Of a DNA stretch of 51,714 bases, positions 21,935 through 51,714 are shown one piece after another. Source of the stretch: Flavobacteriales bacterium (lineage in GTDB: Bacteria; Bacteroidota; Bacteroidia; Flavobacteriales_D; UBA2798). Location: the NCBI GenBank assembly GCA_019694795.1, contig JAIBBF010000021.1, forward strand, positions 1 through 51,714. The letters run 5' to 3'. The stretch's first letter is position 1. The number at the start of each line of letters is the position of its first letter. The notes under the pieces were generated by a model. That model was given only the letters and a program-made list of their open reading frames with translations. It was not told the origin of the DNA and did not search any database. Made by a program: the position numbers and the translations under genes.

Positions 21935-23815
21935 ATGAAAAAAGTTTACTTACTCGCAGGGATGGTATTGATTGGTGGCGTAAGCTTCGCGCAGGTGCGT
22001 AACAACGTAAATGCTCCTCTGAAGAAGTTCGCTATCGACAAGAACTTCTCAGAAATCGTTACTCCTGCTCAAAACTCAGGAAACCGTGCAGTGATTGTTT
22101 CAGATGACTTCAGCAACGCTGGAAACTGGAATATCGCTACTACAGGTCAAGGTACCTGGGAAATTGTTACCACTATGCCTACTCAACAAGGTCAGTATAT
22201 GGGTAACATGGCTTCAACTACTGCTGCTAATGGATTCGCTACTTTTAACGGAGTACAGTATCTTATCAATGGTGTTGTAGATCCACAAAGTACTACATTA
22301 ACTTACGGTACTGTGATCGACCTTTCTGCTCATGCAGCAGTAACTGTTGATTTCGAACAACGTTACCGTCCGTTCAACTCCGACCAAACGTTTGTTGAAG
22401 TATCAACTGATGGTGGTACTACCTGGACATCATTCGAATTGAATACGCAGTACGCTGTAAATGCAACTGCAGTTCAGAACACCATTTCACAAAACATCTC
22501 TGCTGTTGCCGGTAACAATGCAACAGTTACAATCCGTTTCCGTTGGGAAGAAACTTCTGGTGATGACCAATACGGATCAGGATACGGATGGTGTGTAGAT
22601 GATTTCTCTGTAAACACTGCTCCAAACGATAACCTCGTTTTAACAGCTTCTGCTTACATGGATCCTACTTCTTACAACACCTGGGGTTATGGAATCGGTT
22701 ACGGAATCATGCCAATCAGCCAAATCGCTTCAGTTCAATTTGCTGGTACAATGGAAAACCAAGGTTCTGCCAACCAAGCTAACGCTCGTTTAACTGCAAC
22801 TGTAGTTAACAGCGCTGGTTCTACTGTATTCACCGGTAACGGTGCAGGTGCAACTCTTCCTGCATTAAGCTCAATGAACGATACTACACTTACTGCTTTC
22901 ACACCTGCAGCTGCTGTAGATACATTCGACATCACCTTCCGTGCGAACTACGATAACTTCGCTACTGATGCAACTCCTGCCAACAACGACATGATGAACA
23001 CCTTCTACGTTTCAGCTAACCAATATGGTCGTGATGATAACGTTTACACTGGTGGTGGTCTTTGGAATGGTGAAACAGGTGGTGTTTCTGATGCATTCGT
23101 TCTTGCTAACCTTTTCGAAGCGAAAAACGATATGGACATCAACCGTATCCGTGCTGCATTCACTTCTTCTACTGATGCAGGTGTAATTGCTTGTGCTCAG
23201 ATTTATGAAGTAGATCCTTCAACTGGTGACTTTAACCTGGTTGCTGAAAACTGCGGTGGTGCAGATGAAATCACAATTGCTTCGAATCAAATTTCAACTG
23301 GTGGTACAATCACTTGGGTTGACTTTGTTCTTTGTCACACTTTAACTGCTGGTAACTACTACCTCGCAGGTATCAATCACTACGGTGGTGCACAAGCATT
23401 AGTTGTAATGTCTTCACCTAACGTAACTGCAGAACAACAAACTGTATTCCTTTTAGACGGTACTAACGCTACTTGGTACTACCTCACTTCAGTTCCTAAA
23501 ATCCGTATGGTAGAAGGTGCTTGTGATATCAATGTTGCTGAAGTTGCTTCAGAAAACTTTGTTCTTTCACAAAACATTCCTAACCCTGCAAACGGAACTA
23601 CTACTATCCGTTACTCCATCAACGAAAACGCAAACGTTACTTTCGAAATCGTTGACGTAACCGGTAAAGTAATTAAAAACGAAAACTTCGGTACTCGTTC
23701 TGCTGGTGACTACCAAATCAATCTTGACACTGATGCATTTGCTGCTGGAGTATATTTCTACTCTGTAACTGTAAATGGTGAGCGTCAAACTAAGCGTATG
23801 ATCATCAACAAATAA
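21935..23815 (+). CDS. T9SS type A sorting-domain secreted protein (first tandem copy)
   Basis: A 626-aa secreted protein: signal peptide (residues 1-20, ending SFAQ); a jelly-roll/anchor-J-like region (~50-230) with DDFSNAGNW, STDGGTTWTSFE and GYGWCVDDFSV; a middle beta region; a block GLWNGETGGVSD…HYGG…TVFLLDGTNATWYYL (~370-530); and a C-terminal type A sorting domain (~545-626, FVLSQNIPNPANGTTTIRYS … GVYFYSVTVNGERQTKRMII). The sorting domain directs T9SS export and surface attachment. Codons are biased to GCT, ACT, AAC and TTC, unlike neighbours, suggesting high expression. Paralogous to the next gene. Confidence 0.9.
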   Translation: MKKVYLLAGMVLIGGVSFAQVRNNVNAPLKKFAIDKNFSEIVTPAQNSGNRAVIVSDDFSNAGNWNIATTGQGTWEIVTTMPTQQGQYMGNMASTTAANGFATFNGVQYLINGVVDPQSTTLTYGTVIDLSAHAAVTVDFEQRYRPFNSDQTFVEVSTDGGTTWTSFELNTQYAVNATAVQNTISQNISAVAGNNATVTIRFRWEETSGDDQYGSGYGWCVDDFSVNTAPNDNLVLTASAYMDPTSYNTWGYGIGYGIMPISQIASVQFAGTMENQGSANQANARLTATVVNSAGSTVFTGNGAGATLPALSSMNDTTLTAFTPAAAVDTFDITFRANYDNFATDATPANNDMMNTFYVSANQYGRDDNVYTGGGLWNGETGGVSDAFVLANLFEAKNDMDINRIRAAFTSSTDAGVIACAQIYEVDPSTGDFNLVAENCGGADEITIASNQISTGGTITWVDFVLCHTLTAGNYYLAGINHYGGAQALVVMSSPNVTAEQQTVFLLDGTNATWYYLTSVPKIRMVEGACDINVAEVASENFVLSQNIPNPANGTTTIRYSINENANVTFEIVDVTGKVIKNENFGTRSAGDYQINLDTDAFAAGVYFYSVTVNGERQTKRMIINK

Positions 23816-24013: not shown

Positions 24014-25894
24014 ATGAAAAAACTCTCTACTCTAGTATGCGTTTTGCTTGCCGGTGGTTTTGCGAATGCTCAGAATACGGGCGTTCCTGCAAAATCTCCA
24101 GCTATGGTCAACGTAAAGAAGACTGCTGTTATGGAAAAACGTGATGTTGTAAACGGAGCATCGCATTCGGGTAACCGCGCCATCATTTGGAGCGATGATT
24201 TCGATAACAACCCAACTACAGTTTGGACACGTACCAACACTTCAGTTCCTGCTCAGGACTGGGTTTTTGGAACTGCTCTTCCAAATTCACTCGTAACTCA
24301 AGGATTTGATGCTGTGTTAAACTCTGCTTCAGGCGGAACTTTCGCTTATGTGGATTCTGATGGTGCTGGTGGAACTGCTACACAAAACTGTAACCTGACA
24401 ACTACTGCTGCAATTGATATGTCGGCTGCTGCATCTTGCCAGTTAACTTTTACTAACTATCACCGTCGTTACCTCGAAACTCATACGATTCAGATTTCTA
24501 CGGATGGTGGTTCTACTTGGACCGACTTCGTAGTTAACAGCCAATACCCAACCAGCACTACTTCACCAAATGGTGAAATAGTATCGGTTAACATCGGTTG
24601 TGTTGCTGCTGGTCAGTCTAACGTATTAATCAATTTCAACTATCAAGGTGCTTGGGACTGGTTCTGGGCTATTGATGATGTTGTAGTTGAAGATGCGCCT
24701 GCTGATGAAGTAAACATCGTTTCTGGTGGATTCCAGTGCGACGATATGAATATCTTCGGATTCCATAACCGTTACACTATTTTCCCAAGTAATGAGGTTC
24801 GTCCAATGAGACATTATGGTGTTATTGGTAATGGTGGTGCAAATGCTCAAACCGGAGCAAAAGTTGTGGCTCAGGTTACAAATTCAACCTTTACTGTTCT
24901 TTACACAGGAATGGGTGCTGGTCAGAACTTAGGTACCTGCGCTAGTGCTACTTTAAACGATACTACAACTACTGTTTATACTTCTGCCGGAACACCTGGA
25001 ACATACAACAACATCATCGCTGCTGCTTATAACAATATTGCGAATGATGCTGATTTGACCAATAACGCTGATACTATTCAGCATTGGGTGAACAATACAC
25101 TGATCGGACAAGATGATAATACTTACCGTGGAAATGGTCTTTGGAATGGTGAAACTGGTGGAGTTTCCGATCCATATGTAATGGGTAACCTGATTGAGTT
25201 GTTAAGCAACCAAACGGTTTATGCAATTGATGTTGCATTAACCGGTAACACCGATCCAGGAGTGCTTCTTTGTGCTCAGATTTACGAAGTAGACCAAACT
25301 ACAGGTGACTTCAACATTGTTGACGAAACTTGCGGAGGTGCTGCTGAAATTACTGTAAACAGTGGTCATATTTCTTCTGGCGGAACCATCACTTGGGTTC
25401 ACAACATTTTCCCTGCTCCAGTTTCTTTAGCTGCTGGTGGGTCTTACATCGCTGCAGTTAATCACTACGGTGGTAACGAAGCATTGGTAGTAATGCAAGG
25501 TGGTACAGGAGCAGATCAGCAAACTGTATTCTTATTGGATGGTACGAATGCTACATGGTACTACATGACATCAATCCCAATGATCCGTTTCAACTTTGAT
25601 GCTTCAATCGGTGTAAACGAAATCACTAACGGTAACCTTGAGCTTTTCCAAAACGTTCCAAACCCTGCAAATGGTACAACTTCTATCCGTTTCAACCTTT
25701 TAGACAATGCGGATGTAGCATTTGAAATGGTTGATGTTACTGGTAAAGTTGTTGCTACTGCTGACCTTGGTAACAAAGGAATCGGAAACCACACTATGAC
25801 TTTAGACGTTACAAAATTTGCTACTGGTATCTACTACTATAGCATTATTGCTAACGGAAACCGCATGACCAAGAAAATGGTTATCAGCGAATAA
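24014..25894 (+). CDS. T9SS type A sorting-domain secreted protein (second tandem copy)
   Basis: Also 626 aa, with a signal peptide (KLSTLVCVLLAGGFANAQ). The layout matches the previous protein: anchor-J-like N-terminal domain (WSDDFDNN, STDGGSTWTDFV, DWFWAIDDVVVED), shared block GLWNGETGGVSDPYV…CAQIYEVDQTTGDFN…NHYGGNEALVVM…TVFLLDGTNATWYYM, and C-terminal type A sorting domain (ELFQNVPNPANGTTSIRFN … MTKKMVIS). Identical length, colinear domains and shared codon bias point to tandem duplication and high expression. Their N-terminal domains differ more than the block near residues 370-530, so ligand specificity may have diverged. Own terminator, own upstream region. Confidence 0.9.
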   Translation: MKKLSTLVCVLLAGGFANAQNTGVPAKSPAMVNVKKTAVMEKRDVVNGASHSGNRAIIWSDDFDNNPTTVWTRTNTSVPAQDWVFGTALPNSLVTQGFDAVLNSASGGTFAYVDSDGAGGTATQNCNLTTTAAIDMSAAASCQLTFTNYHRRYLETHTIQISTDGGSTWTDFVVNSQYPTSTTSPNGEIVSVNIGCVAAGQSNVLINFNYQGAWDWFWAIDDVVVEDAPADEVNIVSGGFQCDDMNIFGFHNRYTIFPSNEVRPMRHYGVIGNGGANAQTGAKVVAQVTNSTFTVLYTGMGAGQNLGTCASATLNDTTTTVYTSAGTPGTYNNIIAAAYNNIANDADLTNNADTIQHWVNNTLIGQDDNTYRGNGLWNGETGGVSDPYVMGNLIELLSNQTVYAIDVALTGNTDPGVLLCAQIYEVDQTTGDFNIVDETCGGAAEITVNSGHISSGGTITWVHNIFPAPVSLAAGGSYIAAVNHYGGNEALVVMQGGTGADQQTVFLLDGTNATWYYMTSIPMIRFNFDASIGVNEITNGNLELFQNVPNPANGTTSIRFNLLDNADVAFEMVDVTGKVVATADLGNKGIGNHTMTLDVTKFATGIYYYSIIANGNRMTKKMVISE

Positions 25895-36489: not shown

Positions 36490-36912
36490 TCAATGATTTA
36501 ATATTTCATTTAATTGCATACCTAGCCATTGTGAAGCAACTTCTTCATTTCTGAAAACTTTAGATGGAATGGGTGGTTTAAAAATTTTCAGGTAGAAATT
36601 TGCAGCAATTTGAATGGCGGAATTGTCGACCAATATCGCTTCTGCTACTCTGTGTTCGTTAAGGCGACTACTTTTTGATGCAAATTGACGAGCTTCTTTG
36701 CTGAAGTAAACTCGTTTTCCGCGCAAGTCAACCAGAGATACAACTTTTCTGTCTCCAATCATCGACAGGCAGCCTTCATGTAATTCTTTGTACTCTTCGA
36801 GTGTGACCGGTTTATCTGAATCACGAAAGGTGACAATAAAGACATCTTCCGAAATAAATCGGGCTGAGGCAATTTTGCAATTGAAAATTAATTCCTGCGC
36901 AAAGGGAATCAT
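36490..36912 (-). CDS. STAS-like (DUF7793-type) small cytoplasmic protein
   Basis: A 140-aa soluble protein: DVFIVTFRDSDKPVTLEEYK, KVVSLVDLRGKRVYFSKEAR, AEAILVDNSAIQIAANFYLK and FKPPIPSKVFRNEEVASQWL. This pattern matches a Bacteroidota STAS-like family. Related STAS proteins work in signalling and partner switching; the function here is unknown. Its ATG overlaps the PorP stop as TAATG, so it is translationally coupled to the adhesin–PorP operon. Confidence 0.72.
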   Translation of the reverse strand: MIPFAQELIFNCKIASARFISEDVFIVTFRDSDKPVTLEEYKELHEGCLSMIGDRKVVSLVDLRGKRVYFSKEARQFASKSSRLNEHRVAEAILVDNSAIQIAANFYLKIFKPPIPSKVFRNEEVASQWLGMQLNEILNH

Positions 36913-37949
36913 TACAAGAAACGGCTTGAACGGATTTTAGAACCTGAAGAAGGATATACAAAGCGAAGCGCAATTTCCATTCCGCCTCTTCCAGTACTTG
37001 CCTGTGTTAAATCCGAAACATTAAGATCATAACTGAATCCGACTGCATATCCTCCAAATTGCAATAGGGTGGTTAAAATTACCGCATCTTTATTCCGGTA
37101 AAAACATCCTAATGAAATAGAAGAACCGGTTACAAATCCGGTGAAATGTGCATCCTCCACAAGGCGATACCGGACATTTGTTCCCATTACTAATTCTCTT
37201 GATCCTCCCTGTAAACTATAACTCAATCCCGGAACAATGCTAATGCGTGAATGCGGGATTCCGAACAAAGCATTTCCATATAAAACATATTTACGATACA
37301 AACGTTCTGAACCATCTCCTAAAAATGAATAATCAGGTTTGTGAACGTGGAAAACAGCGAGTCCACCTGTTGCCATAATCTGATTGTTACCGGTCAGATT
37401 TTTTTCGCCTTGTTTATAGGTGTACGCGATTCCTGTTCCTAAATCAAGAAATGATTTGGTGAAATTACCAGATGCAGATTCTCCTGTTGGTAAAAGCGGA
37501 TTATAAGCCGTTCCATCATACTGTGCACCCCATTGCAGATTGGTAGTATTTACGGATCGTTGCGCATAGCCACCCATTACACCCAGACCAAGCGTTTGTC
37601 CGTCTGCAATTTTCAAGTGATAGGCTACATTCAGATTTCCTTGCATCACACCCATTTTTGCATCGCCTGCACGATCTGAATAAAAGAAAATACCTCCGGC
37701 CCAGAATCCGTTTTTATTTTCACCAAAACGCATGTCGTAAGATGCACCGATGGTTTTATAAGGTGAAGCAACGCTTTTCCATTGTTCCTTATAATTTACG
37801 TTAGCACGAATCTCAGATTCATTCCCTGCATTACCGGGATTAAGCTGCATGGGAGCCATGTAGAATTGAGAAAAGTGAATGTCCTGTCCGAATACCACGG
37901 AAGGAATAATGATTGTCAGAATCGCAACTGTTTTTTTCATGATCATCAT
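36912..37949 (-). CDS. PorP/SprF family T9SS outer-membrane protein
   Basis: A 345-aa predicted beta-barrel protein with signal peptide (MKKTVAILTIIIPSVVFGQ) and the family N terminus DIHFSQFYMAPMQLNPGNAG, then NVNYKEQWKSVASPYKTIGA. PorP/SprF proteins help dock T9SS cargo with gliding-type C-terminal domains at the surface. It is coupled to the upstream 1453-aa adhesin by a TAATG overlap. ATG 37949 is chosen by that overlap; 37946 and 37940 are also possible. Confidence 0.9.
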   Translation of the reverse strand: MMIMKKTVAILTIIIPSVVFGQDIHFSQFYMAPMQLNPGNAGNESEIRANVNYKEQWKSVASPYKTIGASYDMRFGENKNGFWAGGIFFYSDRAGDAKMGVMQGNLNVAYHLKIADGQTLGLGVMGGYAQRSVNTTNLQWGAQYDGTAYNPLLPTGESASGNFTKSFLDLGTGIAYTYKQGEKNLTGNNQIMATGGLAVFHVHKPDYSFLGDGSERLYRKYVLYGNALFGIPHSRISIVPGLSYSLQGGSRELVMGTNVRYRLVEDAHFTGFVTGSSISLGCFYRNKDAVILTTLLQFGGYAVGFSYDLNVSDLTQASTGRGGMEIALRFVYPSSGSKIRSSRFL

Positions 37950-40900
37950 TATTTAAAGAGCGTTACATTTCCTTGTTTTTCTATTTTTTCACCATTGGTG
38001 AGTGTAGCAGTGAGGTAGTAAAAGAATACAGCACCGTTCATTGGCTTATCGCGAATGGTTCCATCCCAGGATTCTGCCGGATTGGTGGTTTCAAATACTT
38101 TTTCTCCCCAGCGGTCGAATACAGCGAAGTATAATTCCTGTATACAATTACCATAAACTTTTAACGTATTGTTCGAAGCATCACCATTGGGTGAGAAGGC
38201 TGTTGGAACAAACAATTCGCCGCATGGCATATCTACAATTACTATTACGGTATCACTTCCAAAACATCCATTTGCATCTGTTCCGTTAACGATATAGGTG
38301 GTAGTTGTATTTGGCGAAGCATAAGGATTAGCGCAATTGCTGCAACTTAAACTTGAGGTTGGTGTCCATGTGTAAACAATTCCTCCTGTTGCAGAAAGCT
38401 GCACGCTGTCGCCCTGCAAAATAATTTGATCTGCACCGGCAGAAATATTCGCTGTACCAATGGTAGAAATAGTTCCACTTGCACTTGCCGTACATCCATT
38501 GGCATCTGTTACGGTTACTGTATAATTTCCTGCTGCAAGATTAGTTGCAGTTGTTCCGTTTTGCGATGGAACACTATTCCAGGAATATCCAAAAGGATTT
38601 GTTCCTCCACTCACCGTTGCAGTTGCTGAACCATCATTCGCACCACAGTTGGCACTTGTTGTTGTTACCGTTACTGCAAGTGCAGCAGGTTCAATGATCG
38701 TTACGTTGATGCTGGCGCTACAACCGGATGCATCGGTTACGGTGGCAGTGTAAGTTCCTCCTGCTAATCCACTCGCGGTGTTTCCACTTTGTGCTGGTGT
38801 TGTATTCCATGTAACGGAAGTTGGTGGCGTTCCTCCGCTGGTAGTTACGGTTGCTGTTCCGTCGGCATCACCGTTACAGGTGACATCCGTTTGCGTGCTT
38901 AATGTAATGGTTGGTGCTCCAACGTTACTGATGTTTGCACTGGCAGTTGCAGTACATCCATTCGCATCCGTTGCAGTTACGGTATAAGATCCTGCAGCAA
39001 GTGCTGTGGCAGTGGCTGTATTTTGTGCGGGACTCGTATTCCACGAATACGAAATTGCACCTGTACCTCCAGTTCCATTGGCAGTAGCTGTTCCATCACT
39101 TGCTCCGCAGTTAGCAGGTGTTGTAGTGGTGGTGACACTTACTGCAGTGGCCGGTTGCGTAATAGTGATGGTAGTTGATCCTACACAGTTGTTGTTATCA
39201 GTAACGGTTACCGTATAAGTTCCTGCCGCAAGCGAAGAGAAATTTTGTGATCCTGCTACATTGTTAAATGTGGCAACTGTGTTTCCTCCGAGAGTTAAAA
39301 CATAATCATAAGGCGATGATCCTCCACTAGCTGTTGCTGTAAAACTACCGGTGGACTGACCAAAACATAATACATTCACTTGTGCACTAGTAGTAACGGT
39401 TGGTCCACCCGAAGAGGTAATTGTTGTACTTGCGGTTGCGGTACATCCATTTGCATCGGTTGCTGTAACAATATAATTTCCTGCACCGAGTGATGTTGCT
39501 GTTGCTGTGTTCTGCACCGGTGATGAATTCCATGAATAACCAAATGCACCTGTTCCTCCACTCGCTAATGCAGTTGCAGATCCATTGTTATTTCCGCAGG
39601 TTGCAGGAGTGGTAGAACTCACCGTCACCGAAGGTGCAGAAGCGGGTTGTGTAATGGTTACCGTAGTTGTTCCCGTACAGTTATTGTTATCGGTTACGGT
39701 TACCGTATAAGTTCCGGCTGCCAATGAAGAAAAGGCTTGTGATCCTGCTACATTGTTAAAGGTTGAAATGGTATTTCCACCCAATGTTAAAACATAATCG
39801 TAAGGAGAAGCTCCTCCTGATGAACTGGCAGAAAAACTTCCGGTGGATTGTCCGAAACAATTCACGTTTACTTGCGATGAAGTGCTAATGGTTATTGTTG
39901 GACATGCAGTACATGCCGGAATGGTTGCAAGATTAAAATACGTAATGGTTGTTCCATTGGCGTCCACCACCTGAATACTATCTATACCTGCACCGGGGGT
40001 GACATTGGTTCCGGTGTTAAAATTAATCCAGGTTAAAGCAGGCGGACCAGCAACTTGACCAAAGTTTCCACCGCAAAGTCCTAATCCCGCAACGCAAGTT
40101 GAAACCATTGTTCCATTTTGCCAGGTATAAGGACCTGTTCCTCCCGACACGGTATAACTTCCGTTTGTTTCATGACATAAACTTAATGGTGCGCAAGAGG
40201 AAACAACAATCGATTGTGTTGATGATCCACATGGTAATGTATACGTCACTGTATAAGTACCCGGACTTGCACTTGCCGGAGTAAATACACCAGTACTGGA
40301 ATTAAATGCAACTGTTGCAGGAGATACGCTCCAGGTTCCACCTGCTGTTCCCGGTGTTAAAGTAATAGGTGAATCGGATGTACAAAGATTTCCGGGAGGA
40401 CAAATTGTTGGATCGCAACATGTGGTAGCAATTTGCGCACATGCAGAAGCAGCGAATGATTGAACGGATCCTGTTCTTGAACTGCTTCCTGAATTTCCGG
40501 TAGAACCTGCAGCAATTAAATCGCCGGTGGATGTAATAGCAACATCATATACATTAAATGTAGTAGCGAAGAATTGCAATTGATTTAAATTCTGATCGAA
40601 TTTGTAAACGCCGGTTTTTGATCCTACATAAATATTTCCGCAGTTGTCGATAACAATCCCGCTGTTTTGCGTTTGGTTTTGTCCGAGTGTTGCCGTAAAT
40701 CCTCCTCCGGGAATGGTGGCAGATGCAATGATTGCGGCGGTGTTAAAATCACGTTTATCTAAACGTGTTCCTCTGTTTACAAATACAAAATTATTGTAAT
40801 AGGCAATCGCTTCAATTCCTGTATTATCATATCTCCAGTTTTCACATTTATAGGAGAAATTATATCCGCCGTTTTCAACGTGAAATGGACCGCTTTGTCC

Positions 40901-42310
40901 TGGACAGTTACTTAAATCCTGCGCAACGTATCCGATGGAGTCGTGCGTAAGGAAATAATATTTTTCATTTGTAGTTGCAGTAATGGAACGAACCTCTTGT
41001 GTGTTTGGTGGAATCCCTGCAATGGTGGAACCTGTTACCTGAACACTGGCAGTTACATTTCCGGTATTCATATTGATATCATAGATATAGGGAAGGGGAG
41101 GTAAAACTCCACCTGTTCCGCCAATTACTAATTTGGTTTGATCGCAATTGAATGCAATATTCCAAAATTCGGTACTGGAAAATAATCCACCTGGATTCGG
41201 GTTATTCCACACGACTGTTCCTGATGTATTTACTTTTACAATGGCTGCGCTTGATCCATTAGTTACATATGAATTCCCTGCATCATCCACGGCGAATGTC
41301 CCCAACCATGAAGTCGTATCGTATGGTGTATTATACACCCATTGTTGCACACCGGCTGAATTGTACTTAATTAATTGCAATGGCATTACTCCTCCAATGA
41401 TGTATGCATTTCCTGCAGCATCCGATTCACATTCCCAGATACAATCCCAGTTGGTATTGAAGGCAGGGGATTGAGTCCATGGATCGATTACAATTGTTTT
41501 TGTTGCATCGTAATTTTCGAGTGAAAAGGAAATGGTATTGTTATCGACTTTATAAACCGATTTTATTTTCTGGCTTTCGTTGTTTTGGTAGAAAGTAACC
41601 GGAGCATGGTCGATGATATCTCCGAATGAAGTAGAAGTCCGGATTGTTCCGTCTTCCATTAATTGAATGTTTTTAGAATAATGCAGTTTTACATCTTCAA
41701 CCTTGGCACCCGGGTGAAGAATGACTGAATATTTTACACCGCTTTCAGGGTGAAATTCATACACCACATCAATATTCTTATAGAGATTTTTGTAGGTGAT
41801 TTTTTTATAAGAAGGGATATTGTTTGCGTCCGTCAATTTCCCCTTTGCATCGTAGAAACTATAGGTATGCGTAAAATTATTTTTTTCTGAAGAAACAATT
41901 TCAGCATTTGGATTAGCATTGATCCAGTTACAGTAAACTATCTCGGTATTAAAATCTAAACGGTTTCCTTCTTTTTCAAAAACCTGCCAGTCCTTTAACG
42001 AATTAAATCCTTGTTCTTTTCTGGCATTTCTCGCAGCTTTTTCTTCATCCGATTTTTTTCGTTTGGCTTGCGATTCCAAAACAATGGCCATACCACTGGG
42101 TGTGAAAAAATAATTTTCATAGTGACCATCATGTCCGAATACCACATGATTATTAAATCCATTTTGGGCCGGAAGGATAAACTGACCTTTATTTTCAATA
42201 AATGCTTTCGACTCGAATGGATTATGCTTCCATTTTTCAGATTGTGATTTCGCGAATAGTGGCGCAATCAGAAGAGAAAATACAGAAAACAATTTCAAAG
42301 AGAATTTCAT
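37949..42310 (-). CDS. Giant gliding-type T9SS adhesin with SprB repeats (1453 aa)
   Basis: Signal peptide (1-22). An N-terminal DUF7948-like domain (~36-275: AFIENKGQF, NIDVVYEFHPESGVKYSVIL) comes first. A beta-propeller-like section (~285-620) is followed by an Ig-like/PKD region (~640-800). Six SprB-type repeats in three long-short pairs (~805-1284: NCFGQSTGSF…GTYTVTVTDNNNC and CG..DG.A.A…ATDANGC) follow. An Ig-like domain precedes the gliding-motility C-terminal sorting domain (~1365-1453: FVPTAFSPNGD … FDRWGEKVFE). By family it is exported by T9SS and retained on the surface with PorP. A TTGAGGGG-type promoter lies upstream. Confidence 0.92.
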   Translation of the reverse strand: MKFSLKLFSVFSLLIAPLFAKSQSEKWKHNPFESKAFIENKGQFILPAQNGFNNHVVFGHDGHYENYFFTPSGMAIVLESQAKRKKSDEEKAARNARKEQGFNSLKDWQVFEKEGNRLDFNTEIVYCNWINANPNAEIVSSEKNNFTHTYSFYDAKGKLTDANNIPSYKKITYKNLYKNIDVVYEFHPESGVKYSVILHPGAKVEDVKLHYSKNIQLMEDGTIRTSTSFGDIIDHAPVTFYQNNESQKIKSVYKVDNNTISFSLENYDATKTIVIDPWTQSPAFNTNWDCIWECESDAAGNAYIIGGVMPLQLIKYNSAGVQQWVYNTPYDTTSWLGTFAVDDAGNSYVTNGSSAAIVKVNTSGTVVWNNPNPGGLFSSTEFWNIAFNCDQTKLVIGGTGGVLPPLPYIYDINMNTGNVTASVQVTGSTIAGIPPNTQEVRSITATTNEKYYFLTHDSIGYVAQDLSNCPGQSGPFHVENGGYNFSYKCENWRYDNTGIEAIAYYNNFVFVNRGTRLDKRDFNTAAIIASATIPGGGFTATLGQNQTQNSGIVIDNCGNIYVGSKTGVYKFDQNLNQLQFFATTFNVYDVAITSTGDLIAAGSTGNSGSSSRTGSVQSFAASACAQIATTCCDPTICPPGNLCTSDSPITLTPGTAGGTWSVSPATVAFNSSTGVFTPASASPGTYTVTYTLPCGSSTQSIVVSSCAPLSLCHETNGSYTVSGGTGPYTWQNGTMVSTCVAGLGLCGGNFGQVAGPPALTWINFNTGTNVTPGAGIDSIQVVDANGTTITYFNLATIPACTACPTITISTSSQVNVNCFGQSTGSFSASSSGGASPYDYVLTLGGNTISTFNNVAGSQAFSSLAAGTYTVTVTDNNNCTGTTTVTITQPASAPSVTVSSTTPATCGNNNGSATALASGGTGAFGYSWNSSPVQNTATATSLGAGNYIVTATDANGCTATASTTITSSGGPTVTTSAQVNVLCFGQSTGSFTATASGGSSPYDYVLTLGGNTVATFNNVAGSQNFSSLAAGTYTVTVTDNNNCVGSTTITITQPATAVSVTTTTTPANCGASDGTATANGTGGTGAISYSWNTSPAQNTATATALAAGSYTVTATDANGCTATASANISNVGAPTITLSTQTDVTCNGDADGTATVTTSGGTPPTSVTWNTTPAQSGNTASGLAGGTYTATVTDASGCSASINVTIIEPAALAVTVTTTSANCGANDGSATATVSGGTNPFGYSWNSVPSQNGTTATNLAAGNYTVTVTDANGCTASASGTISTIGTANISAGADQIILQGDSVQLSATGGIVYTWTPTSSLSCSNCANPYASPNTTTTYIVNGTDANGCFGSDTVIVIVDMPCGELFVPTAFSPNGDASNNTLKVYGNCIQELYFAVFDRWGEKVFETTNPAESWDGTIRDKPMNGAVFFYYLTATLTNGEKIEKQGNVTLFK
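38459..39898 (-). repeat. SprB-type tandem repeats in the 1453-aa adhesin
   Basis: Three long-short repeat pairs with a period of about 163 residues (~490 bases). The first two pairs are closely alike also at the DNA level (compare 39158-39368 with 39650-39860). Confidence 0.8.
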
Positions 42311-42337
42311 AGTACTTGGGTTTAGAAATCTTCGTTA

Positions 42338-42384
42338 CAAAATTACCCAGCAGGAATTTTCTGTTATGGGGGCTGCCCCCTCAA
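42338..42384 (-). promoter_or_regulatory. Promoter with TTGAGGGGGC motif for the 1453-aa adhesin operon
   Basis: Minus strand: TTGAGGGGGCAGCCCCC at 42384-42368; 39 bases from its start is TAATTTTG (42345-42338), a perfect TAnnTTTG; the ATG is 27 bases beyond. No TTTG -33 element is present; the inverted G/C motif sits just upstream of where it would be, as an activator site would. Confidence 0.7.
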
Positions 42385-42425
42385 AGGCTATTTTGTTTTA
42401 TTCTATACAGAAAATGGTGAGATGG

Positions 42426-42492
42426 AAAAAAAATCCCGTCGATAATGATGAAAACCTACTTGCCAAAATTTTCAGAAAGGAATCGACGGGAT
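42426..42492 (-). terminator. Terminator of the candidate small RNA
   Basis: Perfect 11-base inverted repeat followed on the minus strand by eight T. The 38-base loop is long for a standard terminator but is internally AT-rich. It stands 41 bases before the motif of the adhesin promoter. Confidence 0.6.
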
Positions 42493-42504
42493 CCTGAATT
42501 ATTT

Positions 42505-42543
42505 TCAGGGACGGATGACCGGTTCTATGATGATTCGGATCAT
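42505..42543 (-). CDS. Possible 12-codon leader peptide
   Basis: Reads MIRIIIEPVIRP, ATG at 42543 and TGA at 42507-42505. Its distance from the -7 box (22 bases) equals that of the two adhesin start codons (27 and 19), and its stop codon overlaps the first hairpin arm, as in attenuator leader peptides. It could be chance. Confidence 0.3.
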   Translation of the reverse strand: MIRIIIEPVIRP

Positions 42544-42564
42544 GGTCTTTTTTTGCTTGCTGAA

Positions 42565-42612
42565 CAAATGTAGTAGGTCAACTAAATCGAATTTGGTGGG
42601 CTACCCCCTCAA
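42565..42612 (-). promoter_or_regulatory. Promoter with TTGAGGGGGT motif for the candidate small RNA
   Basis: Minus strand: TTGAGGGGGTAGCCCACC at 42612-42595, and TACATTTG at 42572-42565, 40 bases apart start to start. Same layout as the two adhesin promoters. Confidence 0.65.
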
Positions 42613-42708
42613 TGTTTATCTCGCTGTTTTTCAGAATAAAGTGTATTGGGAAAAGGACTAAACCAATTAGATTTGTTTAAAAAATAACCTGATTTAAATG
42701 TTGAGGTT

Positions 42709-42794
42709 AAAAAAAGAATGCTGCAAGGCGGAAAACTACGTCGGAAAAAAGAACGAAAATGAGGGTGACGTTGTTGGAAAGGTGCCTTGCAGCA
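42709..42794 (-). terminator. Long-loop terminator-like inverted repeat after the OmpA-like gene
   Basis: Perfect 11-base inverted repeat TGCTGCAAGGC / GCCTTGCAGCA with 54 bases between, five bases after the OmpA-like stop. On the minus strand the second arm is followed by TTCTTTTTTT. The long loop is unusual; it may be a terminator with an internal structure or a small inserted element. Confidence 0.5.
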
Positions 42795-42799
42795 AAAAA

Positions 42800-45723: not shown

Positions 45724-48700
45724 TTATTTTCTTCTTAATTCCAATGATCCGCGTAATGGTTCCAACGTGTCGTTTAATTTCAACACATAGAAATAGGTTC
45801 CATCCACTACGTCTTCACCAAATAAAATGCGATTGGTATTGGATTGTCCGTTCCAGTTATTGGTATATGGCTTCGCCTGAAATACCAACTCTCCCCAGCG
45901 GTTGTAGATGTATAATTCGTTCTCCGGATATTTTTCCAATCCTGTAATCACAAAGTTGTCATTGATGCCATCACCATTTGGTGAGAATCCTCCGGGTACA
46001 TTGATTATTATTTCTTCAGTTACGCGGAATACAACGATTGCTGTATCGCAGAAATCGGAACAGAATGCATCACAAATCACATAGGTGATGGTATCATAAC
46101 CAATGAAATTATCATTCGGATCGTAGGTGATGGTGGTCCCATTTACGGTGTAGGTTCCGTTGGATGAATTATTAATAATTCCAATAGTTCCGGGATTACC
46201 TATATCATTCAATGAAGTATTGATGCTTACGCTGGATGTGTTCTCTACATAAGTAGAATCGTTATTGGCATCTATACTTCCTGCATTGTAAATAGAAACC
46301 AAAACACTGTCGCTTGCGCTACATCCTTGTGCGTTGGTAACGGTAACGGAATAATACGTGTTACTTGTAGGATTTACACTAATACTTGCAGTTGTTTCCC
46401 CGGTTTCCCAATTATAGGTTCCGCCTCCGCTTGCTGTAAGTATAGTAGAGGTATTCGGACAAATTTGTACGTCGTTACCAGCACTTGCATTTGGATTTGC
46501 ATTTACGGTAATGGAAATTTGTTCTTGTCCACCAAGATTCGTACAACCATTTTGATTAACAGCTTCCACAAAATAATTTGTTGTTCCAACAGTTGGTGTA
46601 ACCGTTAATGGAGATGTTCCCAATAAATTTCCGGAAGCATCATAAATGTTGTACGTAATATTTGCACCGGATCCACTTGCGGTAATAGTGCTTGTTTCTC
46701 CGTTACAAATTGTGCTGCTGCTTGCGTTTACGGTAGGATCTAAAGGTGATGCATTTACTAAAATGGAATTGGTAACAGCATCCTGACAAGGCGCTACTCC
46801 TACAGTATAGGTGATGTTCACCGTACCTGATAATCCTGTTGGATCGAATGTATTTCCACTCACACCAGTTCCACTCCATGTTCCACCAGCAGTTCCGGTA
46901 ATAAGCGGATTAAGATTTAACACACCATCCGATTCACACATGGTGCCTGGACTATTCCATGTTGCAGTAATAGTTGCCTGCACGCTGATGCTTTGTGTCA
47001 AAGTTTGTACGCAAGGTGAGGTTCCAACCGTATAGGTTATGTTAATGATTTGTCCTGCTAAACCGGTTGGATCAAAAATATTTCCGCTAACGCCAGTACC
47101 ACTCCATGTTCCTCCGCTTGTTCCGGTAATAAGTGTGTTTAAATTAATCGGACCTGCTTGTATACATGTTGCGCCGGGACTCGTCCAGGATGGATCTGCA
47201 ACCGGAATTACAGTAACAGTGATAGATTGTCGTCCTGCTAAATCTCCGCAACCATTGCTGTTTGCCGCTTCGATATAATAGGTGGTGGTTGCACCGGGTG
47301 ATACATTCAATGGTGTTGCGCCTAACAATGTGCCACCGGTTGGAGCATCATATACATCGAACGAAGTTGCGCCGGTACCACTTGCATTTAGCGTTGTGGA
47401 TTGTCCCGCACAAATAGTTGTATTACTTGCTGAAACTCCTGTTAGATCTGGTGTAACATTAACGGTAATTGTAACAGTAATTGGACTTCCATTACATGAA
47501 TTTGCAGTTGGTGTTACTGTATAAGTTGCAGTGCCTGGATTTGTTCCGCTTGTACTTAATGTTTGCGCAATGGATGATCCTGAATTAGTGGTTCCACCTG
47601 TTACACCACTTTGTGATACGGTCCAGTTAAATGCTGTTCCTCCAACATTCGATCCCAATGCAATGGATGTTGCATTTCCTGAACAAATGGTTTGTGTGGA
47701 TGGTGTTGCAGTTGCAACCGGTGTTGGATTTACAGTTACGGTAGCAGTGATGGGTGAACCATTACAACCATTAGCAGTTGGTGTAACTGTATAAGTTGCA
47801 GTTCCTGATGTTGTTCCCGAATTGCTGATGGTTTGTGCAATACTGCTTCCACTACCATTGGAGGCACCGCTTATTCCTGCAGTTTGAGAAACGGTCCATG
47901 CGTAAGTGGTATTTGCCGTGTTCGAACTTAATGCAATTGAACTTGCATTGCCGGAACAAATAGTTTGTGTGGATGGTGTAGCTGTTGCAACTGGTGCAGG
48001 ATTTACGGTGATGGTTGCAGTAATTGCAGTTCCGCTGCAACCATTTGCAGTTGGTGTAACTGTATAGGTTGCTGTTCCTGCTGTTGTACCGGAATTGGAT
48101 AAGGTTTGCGAAATACTCGAACCACTACTGTTGCTTCCTCCACTTATTCCCGCTGTTTGAGAAACGGTCCAGGCAAATGTTGTTCCGCTTACATTCGAAG
48201 TTAATGCAATTGATGGTGCATTTCCTGAGCAAACAGATGTTGATGATGGAGTAGCTGTTGCTGTAGGAATTGGATTTACAGTTACGGTAACGGTTGCTGT
48301 ACTTCCTGTACAACCATTCGAAGTGGGCGTAACGGTATACGTCACCGTTCCCGGTGTAACACCGCTTGCAGTTAATGTTTGATTGATGGTTGATCCGGAT
48401 CCATTACTTGCTCCTGTTGCACCCGATTGAGTAACGGTCCATGCAAATGTGGTGCTTGATGTTGTACCCGGCACTGTAGATGAAAGCGAAATATTCGGTC
48501 CATTACCGGAGCAGACGCTGGTTGGGGATGGACTCGCAACTACATTGGGTAATGGATTTACGGTAACGGTAACCGAAGTTCGCGACGAAACACATCCCGG
48601 ATTGGTATTGTCTTCCGCTTCTACATAATAGGTAGTGGTAGTGGTTGGACTAACAACGGTAGATGCTGAATTTGAAAATGCAGTTCCTCCCGACGATACA

Positions 48701-50241
48701 GTGTACCAGTGATAGGTCACATTCGTTCCGCCACTTGCGGTTAAAGTTACAGATGCTCCCTGACAGATGGTAGCTGGACTAGGATTAGTTGAAACGGTAG
48801 GAGCTACCGGTGGGGTACAAATTACATTTAAGCAATGTGAATTTACGGTTGGCGTTAAATTGTTAACCACCGGCGTGAAAGTTCCTTCGGATGCTAGGTT
48901 GAAATTCGAACTGGTTGGAGTAGAAAATGACATCGTGTAATTTCCTAGTGAAGGAGTTCGGGTGGTAGGTGGACAACCTGCATCAGGATCGTTCATGTTT
49001 CCGGATGCATCGGTTCGAATGAGATTATAATTAAATCCGGTAATTTGCTGATCCGTCATTACCATATAATAACCCTGGTCACTACATAATCCACCTTCCG
49101 GTAATATGGAAGAAAGTCCGATTGGTGAATATCCTCTTCCGAAAATCAATGCTCCGGTTGAACTGTTCAATTTAAAAATGGTCGAATAAAAAGTGGGAAA
49201 CAAACCGGAAATTTCTGTTCCGATTACGGAATAGTTTCCATCGGAATTTTCCATCAGATCCTGTACAATAAATGTTGCAGGCGGAAATGCTGATCCATTG
49301 ATTTTGCGAGAAAAACTTCCAACGGTTGGTGTAGATCCTGTTCCTTGTAGTTTTACAATGATAGCATCGAGGTTATCATAACCTCCAACTAAAATATCGC
49401 CGGTAGATAGTCGTAATGCGGCATTTAATCCCTGGCTGTTTCCACTACCTCCAAACCTTCTTATATAAGTGAGGTTTCCGCTTAAATCGGTTTTAATGAT
49501 TAATCCATTGCGTGGGTAGTCACCATCTGAATCTAATGTTCCTGTTCCTTCAGATGATTCACCAACAAAGAAATATCCGTCGGCCGATTCTGCAACATCG
49601 TTGATGTAATGTTCATCCGGATTAGCAGTGGAGATGGTCCACACTCTGCTCCATTGTAAAACACCTGCCGAATTCACTTTAAATCCGAATGCAGAAGTAG
49701 TATCAACTGTATTGGCACTTACTCCGTCCCAGAAATAATCCACACTTCCTCCCACAAGAAATCCGCCGTCGGAAGTTTCTATAATAGAGTTCGCTGTTTC
49801 TACGGAGGCGTCATCGGAGGGACGATTAGGTAATGAATAGCGTTTGGCCCAAATCAGATTTCCGTTATCGTCGATACGCACAAGTACTGCACCATTACTA
49901 TCCGAACCACCTGCTGCGATGTACCCTCCGGTGCTTACTTTTTTGAGATCGTTAAACTGTGTTGCAATTCCCCCAACAAATGCCTTACTCCAAATTACGT
50001 TACCTGTACTGCTCACCTTGGTGATGTTACCATAAAGTGGCAAGAACGATGTATTGGTTCCGGCAAAAACAAAATCGCCCGTTGGTGTTTCCACCATTCC
50101 ACCTGCAATATCTAATGCCGCAATATCGTAGCTGGTACGAAAGGTGGTTTGAGCTTTGTTTACTAAAGTGCTGGTAAGAAGTCCTAAAAGAACGATAGTC
50201 CTTCTCCCGAAAATTTTCATTTTCTGAATGTTGATTTTCAT
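45724..50241 (-). CDS. Giant gliding-type T9SS adhesin with PKD/Ig-like repeats (1505 aa)
   Basis: Signal peptide (1-31, ending VNKAQ). A propeller-like section (~35-470: repeats of GGFLVGGS / TGDILVGG) is followed by an Ig-like domain at ~475-560. Four ~91-residue PKD/Ig-like repeats (~566-928: PSTQTICSGN…AWTVSQ…GTATYTVTPTANGC…TVTVNP) come next, then further Ig-like modules including two TWSGTGVSGN repeats (~1015-1160) and one more at ~1250-1320. The gliding-type C-terminal sorting domain closes it (~1412-1505: VPGGFSPNGDGINDNF, YIYNRWGELVFQ). First gene of its operon. ATG 50220 is an alternative start. Confidence 0.92.
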   Translation of the reverse strand: MKINIQKMKIFGRRTIVLLGLLTSTLVNKAQTTFRTSYDIAALDIAGGMVETPTGDFVFAGTNTSFLPLYGNITKVSSTGNVIWSKAFVGGIATQFNDLKKVSTGGYIAAGGSDSNGAVLVRIDDNGNLIWAKRYSLPNRPSDDASVETANSIIETSDGGFLVGGSVDYFWDGVSANTVDTTSAFGFKVNSAGVLQWSRVWTISTANPDEHYINDVAESADGYFFVGESSEGTGTLDSDGDYPRNGLIIKTDLSGNLTYIRRFGGSGNSQGLNAALRLSTGDILVGGYDNLDAIIVKLQGTGSTPTVGSFSRKINGSAFPPATFIVQDLMENSDGNYSVIGTEISGLFPTFYSTIFKLNSSTGALIFGRGYSPIGLSSILPEGGLCSDQGYYMVMTDQQITGFNYNLIRTDASGNMNDPDAGCPPTTRTPSLGNYTMSFSTPTSSNFNLASEGTFTPVVNNLTPTVNSHCLNVICTPPVAPTVSTNPSPATICQGASVTLTASGGTNVTYHWYTVSSGGTAFSNSASTVVSPTTTTTYYVEAEDNTNPGCVSSRTSVTVTVNPLPNVVASPSPTSVCSGNGPNISLSSTVPGTTSSTTFAWTVTQSGATGASNGSGSTINQTLTASGVTPGTVTYTVTPTSNGCTGSTATVTVTVNPIPTATATPSSTSVCSGNAPSIALTSNVSGTTFAWTVSQTAGISGGSNSSGSSISQTLSNSGTTAGTATYTVTPTANGCSGTAITATITVNPAPVATATPSTQTICSGNASSIALSSNTANTTYAWTVSQTAGISGASNGSGSSIAQTISNSGTTSGTATYTVTPTANGCNGSPITATVTVNPTPVATATPSTQTICSGNATSIALGSNVGGTAFNWTVSQSGVTGGTTNSGSSIAQTLSTSGTNPGTATYTVTPTANSCNGSPITVTITVNVTPDLTGVSASNTTICAGQSTTLNASGTGATSFDVYDAPTGGTLLGATPLNVSPGATTTYYIEAANSNGCGDLAGRQSITVTVIPVADPSWTSPGATCIQAGPINLNTLITGTSGGTWSGTGVSGNIFDPTGLAGQIINITYTVGTSPCVQTLTQSISVQATITATWNSPGTMCESDGVLNLNPLITGTAGGTWSGTGVSGNTFDPTGLSGTVNITYTVGVAPCQDAVTNSILVNASPLDPTVNASSSTICNGETSTITASGSGANITYNIYDASGNLLGTSPLTVTPTVGTTNYFVEAVNQNGCTNLGGQEQISITVNANPNASAGNDVQICPNTSTILTASGGGTYNWETGETTASISVNPTSNTYYSVTVTNAQGCSASDSVLVSIYNAGSIDANNDSTYVENTSSVSINTSLNDIGNPGTIGIINNSSNGTYTVNGTTITYDPNDNFIGYDTITYVICDAFCSDFCDTAIVVFRVTEEIIINVPGGFSPNGDGINDNFVITGLEKYPENELYIYNRWGELVFQAKPYTNNWNGQSNTNRILFGEDVVDGTYFYVLKLNDTLEPLRGSLELRRK
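47458..48546 (-). repeat. Four PKD/Ig-like tandem repeats in the 1505-aa adhesin
   Basis: Period about 91 residues (~272 bases) at residues ~566, 656, 747 and 838; the later repeats share near-identical stretches such as ATATPSTQTICSGNA. Confidence 0.8.
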
Positions 50242-50260: not shown

Positions 50261-50309
50261 CAAATGTATCGTAGCCGAATCCCCGGAAAGAAGAGGGGTG
50301 GCCCCTCAA
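50261..50309 (-). promoter_or_regulatory. Promoter with TTGAGGGG motif for the 1505-aa adhesin operon
   Basis: Minus strand: TTGAGGGGCCACCCCTC at 50309-50293 (palindromic GAGGGG-N3-CCCCTC), and TACATTTG at 50268-50261, 41 bases start to start; ATG 50241 is 19 bases beyond. No -33 TTTG. It lies in the 124-base gap after the response regulator gene. Confidence 0.7.
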
Positions 50310-50365: not shown

Positions 50366-51028
50366 TTAAAATTCACGGATGGTCGACAAAAGCTCTCTGT
50401 TTTCGCTTACCCACAGCAATAAGCTATTGTTCCGGGCATCGAGTTCGAGCTTTTTACAAATTCGCGAACGGTAATTTTCTACGGTTTTAACCGAAACAAA
50501 AAGCAATTCAGAAATTTCTTTACTGGAGCGGTTTTGACTAACCAGCTTGAGGGTTTTTAATTCAGCCTGTGTTAGCGTTGAAAGAAGATCCTGGATTTTT
50601 TCTTTTTTCTTATCCGCCTCGCGATATTTATTAAAAGCAGATTGGAGGGATTGGCCGATAAATTTTTTACCCAGCATCACTTCCTTAATGCAATCTACAA
50701 TTTCGATTACTGAATTATCCTTTACAACATAACCGGAAGCTCCGGTGAGGAATGCTTTGTTAAACATTTCTTCCTCTTTGTACATGGTGAGGATAATTAC
50801 TTTAGTCGGAATGTTTTCTGAATAAATTTTCTGGCAGATTTCCAGTCCGTTCATTTCCGGCATATCAATATCCAGAATGGCAACATCGGGTTGAATGCTT
50901 CGGATTGATTCCAAGGTAATATTGCCCGAATCACACTCAGTAATTTCGGCATTCGGAAATGAATTAAGGACAATATCCTTTAATCCTTTTCTGAAAATCG
51001 GGTGATCATCGGCAATGAGTAGCTTCAT
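50366..51028 (-). CDS. NarL/FixJ-type response regulator
   Basis: A 220-aa protein: receiver domain with phosphorylation site ILDIDMPEMNG (Asp53), acidic pair (ADDHP), conserved Thr (ILTMYKEEE) and Lys (GYVVKDNS); C-terminal LuxR-type helix-turn-helix (~150-212: LTQAELKTLKLVSQNRSSKE, ISELLFVSVKTVENYRSRIC). ATGA overlap with the upstream kinase. It is immediately upstream of the adhesin operon, so it is the best local candidate to act at the TTGAGGGG motif; this is inference. Confidence 0.93.
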   Translation of the reverse strand: MKLLIADDHPIFRKGLKDIVLNSFPNAEITECDSGNITLESIRSIQPDVAILDIDMPEMNGLEICQKIYSENIPTKVIILTMYKEEEMFNKAFLTGASGYVVKDNSVIEIVDCIKEVMLGKKFIGQSLQSAFNKYREADKKKEKIQDLLSTLTQAELKTLKLVSQNRSSKEISELLFVSVKTVENYRSRICKKLELDARNNSLLLWVSENRELLSTIREF

Positions 51029-51714
51029 GAATTAGAAATCCTTTCCAGGTTAAATTTAATAATTAATCGGAAACCCTTGCCTTGATTATCGCTCAACTGC
51101 AATTCTCCTTTTAACATTTTAACCCTTTCGCGGATACTTAAGAACCCAATCCCCCGAATCTCCTCTTGATTTCCAATACCTTTTCCATTGTCTCTATAAG
51201 TAAATAAACAATGTTCTCCACTCTTCTCAATGGAAATTTTTAATGCACTTGCACCGGAGTGACGCGTGGTATTGGTTACACATTCCTGAATAATACGATA
51301 CAAATGCGTTTTATTTTCGGGAGATATTTCTTCTATTTCATTGCACACATCAAAACTGCATTCTATTCCGGTTCCGGATTGCGTCATTTCCATTAAGCGG
51401 GCAATACTTCGTATTAATCCGATTTTTTCTAAATAGGAGGGATATAAGTTCCGTGAAATTTCGCGGGTTTGCTCAATTACTTTTCCAACTTCTTCTTCGA
51501 GCGATTGCAAATTTTCTTCCCCATTTCTTCCTAAAATATTTAAGCGCGATTTTACGGCAGAGAGACTTTGTCCGATATCATCATGCAAATCGCGGGCAAT
51601 GCGACTCCTTTCCTTTTCGAGGTTGGCAATTAATTGCTGACTAAAACGCTCTTGTTCCTTGCGGATGTTCCGCTGATTACGGATGTAGAAAACAATAAAC
51701 AACAAAATTAATAT
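51025..51714 (-). CDS. NarX-type sensor histidine kinase, 5' truncated
   Basis: The frame is open to the window edge; the TTG at 51705 is not the true start. Visible: end of a transmembrane helix, coiled linker, HisKA_3 dimerisation box with the phospho-acceptor His (RIARDLHDDIGQSLSAVKSR), N box (IIQECVTNTTRHSGA) and G boxes (YRDNGKGIG, GIGFLSIRERVKMLKG, NQGKGFRLII). It should phosphorylate the following response regulator. The sensor part lies outside the window. Confidence 0.9.
   Translation of the reverse strand: MLILLFIVFYIRNQRNIRKEQERFSQQLIANLEKERSRIARDLHDDIGQSLSAVKSRLNILGRNGEENLQSLEEEVGKVIEQTREISRNLYPSYLEKIGLIRSIARLMEMTQSGTGIECSFDVCNEIEEISPENKTHLYRIIQECVTNTTRHSGASALKISIEKSGEHCLFTYRDNGKGIGNQEEIRGIGFLSIRERVKMLKGELQLSDNQGKGFRLIIKFNLERISNS

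Follow-up and report, generated by a model that had tools for sequence, protein, structure and literature searches.

A Candidate Small RNA Gene Sharing a Palindromic Promoter Type With T9SS Adhesin Operons in a Flavobacteriales Genome

Introduction

The question raised by this locus is what is encoded in the gap that separates an OmpA-like gene from a downstream adhesin gene in a Flavobacteriales genome. To our knowledge, little work has addressed how Flavobacteriales regulate their T9SS adhesins or how small RNAs exert control in this order. In the window, i.e., the whole 51,714-nt stretch of DNA analyzed here, the minus strand carries in order a histidine kinase, a LuxR-type response regulator, adhesin 1, a PorP/SprF gene, the OmpA-like gene, the gap of 489 bases, adhesin 2 and a second PorP/SprF gene. 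On balance, positions 42426–42612 within the gap probably constitute an independent gene for a ~130-nt regulatory RNA which is activated by a response regulator and contains a micro-ORF. Its neighborhood of T9SS, SprB and CHU_C genes is what suggests a possible link to gliding.

The adhesin 2 operon is closed by a DUF7793/SpoIIAA-like protein (36490–36912). Elsewhere in the window, two adjacent ORFs for secreted proteins of 626 aa (21935–23815 and 24014–25894) are equal in length and similar in sequence, apparently a tandem duplication.

A Predicted Transcription Unit in the Gap

The first-pass annotation had described a complete transcription unit inside the gap, a description that is borne out by the parts found there: a palindrome, a −7 box, a transcription start predicted around 42558 and, last, an intrinsic terminator (Table 1). 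The terminator arms ATCCCGTCGAT...ATCGACGGGAT form an 11-bp stem followed by eight T, 116 bases before the ATG of adhesin 2. A strict hairpin scan overlooked this terminator because it permits loops of at most 8. The predicted RNA folds with −39.5 kcal/mol (z −4.4) and is stabler than all 200 of 200 dinucleotide shuffles. With its own promoter, its own terminator and no long ORF, the unit has the makeup of a bacterial intergenic small RNA. No further copies were found within its own genome, and Rfam searches of the window region at gathering and relaxed thresholds returned nothing real, with no family above its gathering score. The statement that no gene lies inside the gap applies to genes of annotated size, but it overlooked a conserved ORF of 12 codons (42543–42505).

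Table 1. Features of the locus, in window coordinates; G001 is the sister species.
Feature	Positions	Strand	Remarks
Histidine kinase	51025..51714	(-)	HisKA_3, HATPase_c; cut by window edge
LuxR/NarL-type response regulator	50366..51028	(-)	Response_reg + GerE; predicted palindrome binder
Third palindrome, adhesin 1 promoter	50292..50309	(-)	−7 box 50261–50268
Adhesin 1	45724..50241	(-)	Ig_7/PKD, CHU_C T9SS signal
Gap between OmpA-like gene and adhesin 2	42311–42799		489 bases
OmpA-gene terminator, long loop	42719..42794	(-)	First element of gap; small unit comes after
Palindrome of small unit, TTGAGGGGGTAGCCCACC	42595..42612	(-)	Predicted activator site; 13/18 identical in G001
−7 box of small unit, TACATTTG	42565..42572	(-)	TAnnTTTG, Bacteroidota sigma-A; 8/8 identical in G001
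Predicted ~130-nt transcript of small unit	42426..42558	(-)	Start predicted near 42558
12-codon ORF, MIRIIIEPVIRP	42505..42543	(-)	G001: MKRIIIDPVILP
Intrinsic terminator hairpin of small unit	42433..42492	(-)	Long conserved loop (TCTGAAAATnnnGGCAAGTAGGTTTTCA)
Terminator T-run (U8)	42426..42433	(-)	First base closes stem
Second palindrome, adhesin 2 promoter (separate)	42367..42384	(-)	15/18 identical in G001
−7 box of adhesin 2 promoter, TAATTTTG	42338..42345	(-)	TATTTTTA in G001
Adhesin 2	37949..42310	(-)	SprB repeats, CHU_C T9SS signal

A Promoter Type Shared With the Adhesins

The pattern TGAGGGG..CCC..TAnnTTTG occurs at exactly three places in the whole 3.45-Mb genome, namely before adhesin 1, the small unit and adhesin 2, as opposed to none for the reversed pattern used as control. 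This agrees with the earlier claim that the unit and the adhesins have a common promoter type. The sister species has the pattern at two of the corresponding places (control 0). The adhesin 2 promoter (42384–42338) sits between the terminator of the unit and the adhesin 2 ATG. A search of 399 genomes of the order located the promoter 56 times, spread over 41 genomes (three times in the reversed control). Most sites lie directly before CHU_C/SprB-type T9SS adhesins or PorP genes, and a conserved LuxR-type response regulator is a repeated neighbor. Of the 49 TAnnTTTG-linked matches whose loci were retrieved, 43 have one and the same overall length, 48 nt. The predicted promoter type is common to both adhesin operons, widespread in the order and also present before other small terminated RNAs.

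The response regulators of eight genomes with a site nearby are 48–79% identical to that of the window, and their recognition-helix region VENYRSRICKKL is invariant. Furthermore, TTGGGGGGGTAGCCC is kept before the adhesin 2 homologue in a genome of family f11 (G012), beside a histidine kinase and response regulator. From this association we infer that the response regulator may bind the palindrome. A palindrome scan of the loci of OmpA homologues in Christiangramia, Flavobacterium and Salegentibacter found none.

Conservation in the Sister Species

The sister species (G001; UBA2798), the only other genome of the genus compared, has the same gene order, with flanking proteins 76–82% identical. 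Fourfold-degenerate sites are 28–34% identical between the two genomes and hence saturated, so that functionless sequence should be lost. Within the gap, identity is 100% in the −7 box, 79% in the terminator, 74% in the ORF and 72–83% in the palindromes, as opposed to 42–48% in the two gap spacers, where shuffled controls give 38% (maximum 43%). The small unit itself is recovered in the sister species with an E-value of about 1e-32. Despite saturation at neutral sites, its putative promoter and start region have been kept, as have the 12-codon ORF and the terminator.

The terminator stem still pairs in the sister species, with a G-C in place of an A-U (by eye), a U-G and an extension of two pairs; an automatic alignment of the two genomes counted no changes on both sides of the stem. 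Covariation within the predicted unit is slight, because only two genomes carry it. A covariance model of the unit (R3) scores 152–153 bits in both and had no match outside them among 378 genomes, and a search for relatives by the ORF pattern likewise returned the sister species only. Two stems had been put forward for comparison in relatives; the terminator was kept, but a comparison of folds showed that the upstream hairpin was not.

The ORF aligns without gaps from start to stop. Its ten differences fall at codon positions 2, 3, 3, 3, 3, 3, 3, 2, 3 and 2, i.e., none at first, three at second and seven at third positions. The flanking genes show the same distribution, as in the OmpA gene, where identity is 0.83, 0.89 and 0.47 at first, second and third positions, respectively. 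Randomly placed differences preserve the ORF with such similarity in 0.3% of trials. The micro-ORF therefore looks coding, although two sequences are too few to settle this. In both genomes it ends with Pro-stop shortly 5′ of the terminator arm, and its peptide begins like a signal peptide. Kozak-like adenines (A at −3 and −6) precede the ATG in this genome and are absent from the sister species; adenines upstream of the ATG favor initiation in Flavobacterium (PMC6847099).

Similar Small RNAs in Other Genomes

At least three other lineages have the same promoter before ORF-less RNAs of ~90–140 nt with terminators, as predicted from sequence. Class A comprises five genomes: G114 (two units), G281, G195, G135 and G203. 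In G114, two tandem promoters lie beside the kinase and regulator genes, each followed by an RNA of ~95 nt that lacks an ORF and has a terminator at its end. Kinase and regulator genes and a DUF3817-like gene adjoin the unit in the retrieved stretches of G114, G281 and G203; in several genomes, this DUF3817-like gene has the response regulator on one side and the class A RNA on the other (L152:4549-4884, L154:3307-3621, L155:3570-3881; Pfam match tested for L152 only).

Class B comprises seven genomes: G275, G347, G388 and G313 together with G283, G342 and G158, the latter being strong new matches to a model built without promoter sequence. All three have a palindrome upstream, which slight changes had hidden from the pattern search. 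Seven of the nine pairs of the first stem show compensatory changes, and UUAGG repeats, tandem and variable in number, are located 3′ of this stem. At L147, L156, L157, L224, L225 and L226, the covarying stem is separated from the terminator by GGTTTAGG/GGTTAGG repeats, whose number varies. Class C is known from two genomes, G317 (directly after the response regulator gene) and G308.

An Rfam scan of seven class A–C loci (L108, L111, L112, L125, L128, L129 and L132) gave no match. These analogous RNAs have no noted ORF and no adhesin directly downstream. Promoter and layout are common to classes A, B, C and D, but sequence is not, so common descent is not demonstrated. A class A model match at 25870 of the window was rejected as an ordinary terminator.

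A wider RNA type lacking the palindrome was observed in several genera of family f9 (L195, L196, L198, L203, L206, L210, L212 and L217), with TTGTTGTTA..ACTACTAC..AAATTAACTTACTACT directly 5′ of a terminator. A gene encoding a protein with the C-terminal end ..APFENDAAPSRPVLY lies convergent to it, and no Rfam match was found at six of its loci (L195, L196, L198, L203, L206 and L212).

Independent RNA, Attenuator or Short mRNA

Both a regulatory RNA and a leader controlling readthrough into adhesin 2 had initially been considered. The former fits the conservation of promoter and terminator in the sister species and the presence of this promoter before terminated, ORF-less RNAs in other genera. 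The latter part is weaker. As an attenuator, a translated 12-codon leader peptide and the terminator would decide whether transcription from an upstream promoter continues into adhesin 2. The textbook order of peptide, terminator and gene is present, as in leader-peptide attenuators of the trp and tna type, the substitutions are coding-like, and the Pro-stop lies near the terminator arm in both genomes. Attenuation is nevertheless rather unlikely, chiefly since a conserved palindrome promoter of its own serves adhesin 2 behind the terminator, so that, judged by sequence, the gene would not depend on readthrough. In the folds compared, no antiterminator common to the two genomes was seen: with the 3′ arm removed, most of the 5′ arm stays unpaired in this genome, as opposed to 0.7–0.9 paired in the sister species. 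The start context favorable in one species and not in the other (cf. PMC6847099), and analogous RNAs that neither contain a noted ORF nor precede adhesins, also speak against it.

That the unit is a short mRNA which serves solely to make the conserved 12-aa peptide, the RNA itself having no function, would agree with the coding-like substitutions and with the loss of the upstream hairpin. It is improbable given that conservation of the terminator loop greatly exceeds what termination requires, that counterpart units elsewhere show no ORF and that the sister species lacks the favorable upstream A (rule from PMC6847099). Slightly less probable still is a remnant of a third adhesin operon lost by deletion, idle or acting as an insulator, in which a promoter and first codons were fused to a 3′-end terminator: the terminator loop does resemble its OmpA-gene counterpart (CCTTTC...GTAG(G)TTTTC) and the peptide has its signal-peptide-like start, but an idle scar would be unrecognizable at saturated neutral divergence.

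For an independent RNA gene, the adjacent histidine kinase and LuxR-type response regulator would turn on the adhesins and the small RNA together, the regulator binding the palindrome. The RNA might then tune surface-protein mRNAs post-transcriptionally via its exposed conserved loop, and the 12-aa peptide might be a further product or might act as a switch coupled to translation. Of these steps, joint activation with the adhesins and a separate termination of the transcript have the best support, whereas loop action and peptide are the least certain.

Comparison With Known Systems

A close parallel is drawn with GacS/GacA-RsmY/RsmZ (BarA/UvrY-CsrB/C), where a LuxR-type regulator acts through a palindromic activating site on small RNAs of ~118–133 nt (PMC4353343). 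The likeness covers the two-component LuxR-type regulator, the upstream palindrome and the size of the RNA, and here the regulator and the palindromic site before the RNA are linked by association. A further likeness is that, in class B relatives, UUAGG repeats in tandem separate the stem from the terminator. In contrast, the palindrome is GAGGGG..CCCCTC instead of TGTAAG..CTTACA, the sequence and fold of the window's RNA have no repeated GGA motifs in loops, and the promoter also drives the adhesins directly. Since no CsrA/RsmA gene was found in 17 genomes searched and the GGA repeats are missing, the small unit is not assigned to Gac/Rsm.

In Flavobacterium psychrophilum, adhesin and protease mRNAs are predicted targets of the sRNA Rfp18 (PMC9723704). 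Both Rfp18 and the unit are flavobacterial sRNAs; compared by description, they have no established shared sequence, and the description used gives no palindrome promoter for Rfp18 (PMC9723704). FopS/GibS, which act with RbpB in Bacteroides thetaiotaomicron, have intrinsic terminators and control surface-protein mRNAs at their starts (PMC11697453); they differ in having the seed in a 5′ single strand and mostly plain sigma-A promoters, and the window region has no Rfam match. As far as these accounts go, Rfp18 and FopS/RbpB indicate that such RNAs act on surface or secreted proteins in the phylum (PMC9723704, PMC11697453).

Candidate RNA Targets

The terminator loop of the small unit carries GUAGG, the antisense form of a UACUAC motif. 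Near start codons after the palindrome promoter, sRNAs included, UACUAC occurs 17 times where two are expected, and class A RNAs also carry it, which suggests a decoy or a shared binder. Leaders with the motif were noted at L109, L114, L116, L126, L150 and others, and in places it takes the form of leucine codons (CTA) within the signal-peptide sequence. Pairing of the small-unit loop with adhesin 1 mRNA was reached by 2 of 300 shuffles in this genome and by 27 of 300 in the sister species, and pairing with the adhesin leaders was rejected as inconsistent between species. The complement of the loop was not over-represented relative to a reversed control in the genomes searched. No candidate target of the predicted RNA is convincing, and its targets are unproven.

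A broader model for Flavobacteriales, offered tentatively, is a Gac/Rsm-like circuit without CsrA. A LuxR-type two-component system would co-activate T9SS adhesins and fast-evolving sRNAs via a TTGAGGGG-N3-CCCC palindrome with constant spacing to TAnnTTTG, and the sRNAs would act on adhesin mRNAs with UACUAC near their start codons, or titrate an RNA-binding protein from them. The order-wide promoter signature, the candidate cognate regulator and the several sRNA classes make up a directly testable regulon, which includes one strongly covarying class and an enriched leader motif pointing to an uncharacterized RNA partner. The recurrence of this design in distantly related flavobacteria suggests an uncharacterized RNA layer controlling surface proteins.

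GGAAAACTAC was rejected as a genome-wide element, the reversed control giving more matches (17 versus 11). Within the OmpA-gene terminator loop lies a 13-nt perfect complement (CGTAGTTTTCCGC, 42740–42728) to the adhesin 1 5′UTR (GCGGAAAACTACG, 50258–50246), which is conserved in the sister species with a flanking base changed on both sides. When the whole hairpin is used as query, none of 300 shuffles reaches the energy of this duplex in either species; for the loop alone, 1 and 10 of 300 do. Due to these shuffles and the matching flank changes, the putative pairing between the 3′ and 5′ ends of the OmpA/adhesin 1 operon is better supported than any RNA interaction of the new unit. In the sister species, the loop of the OmpA-gene terminator fits the adhesin 2 leader as well.
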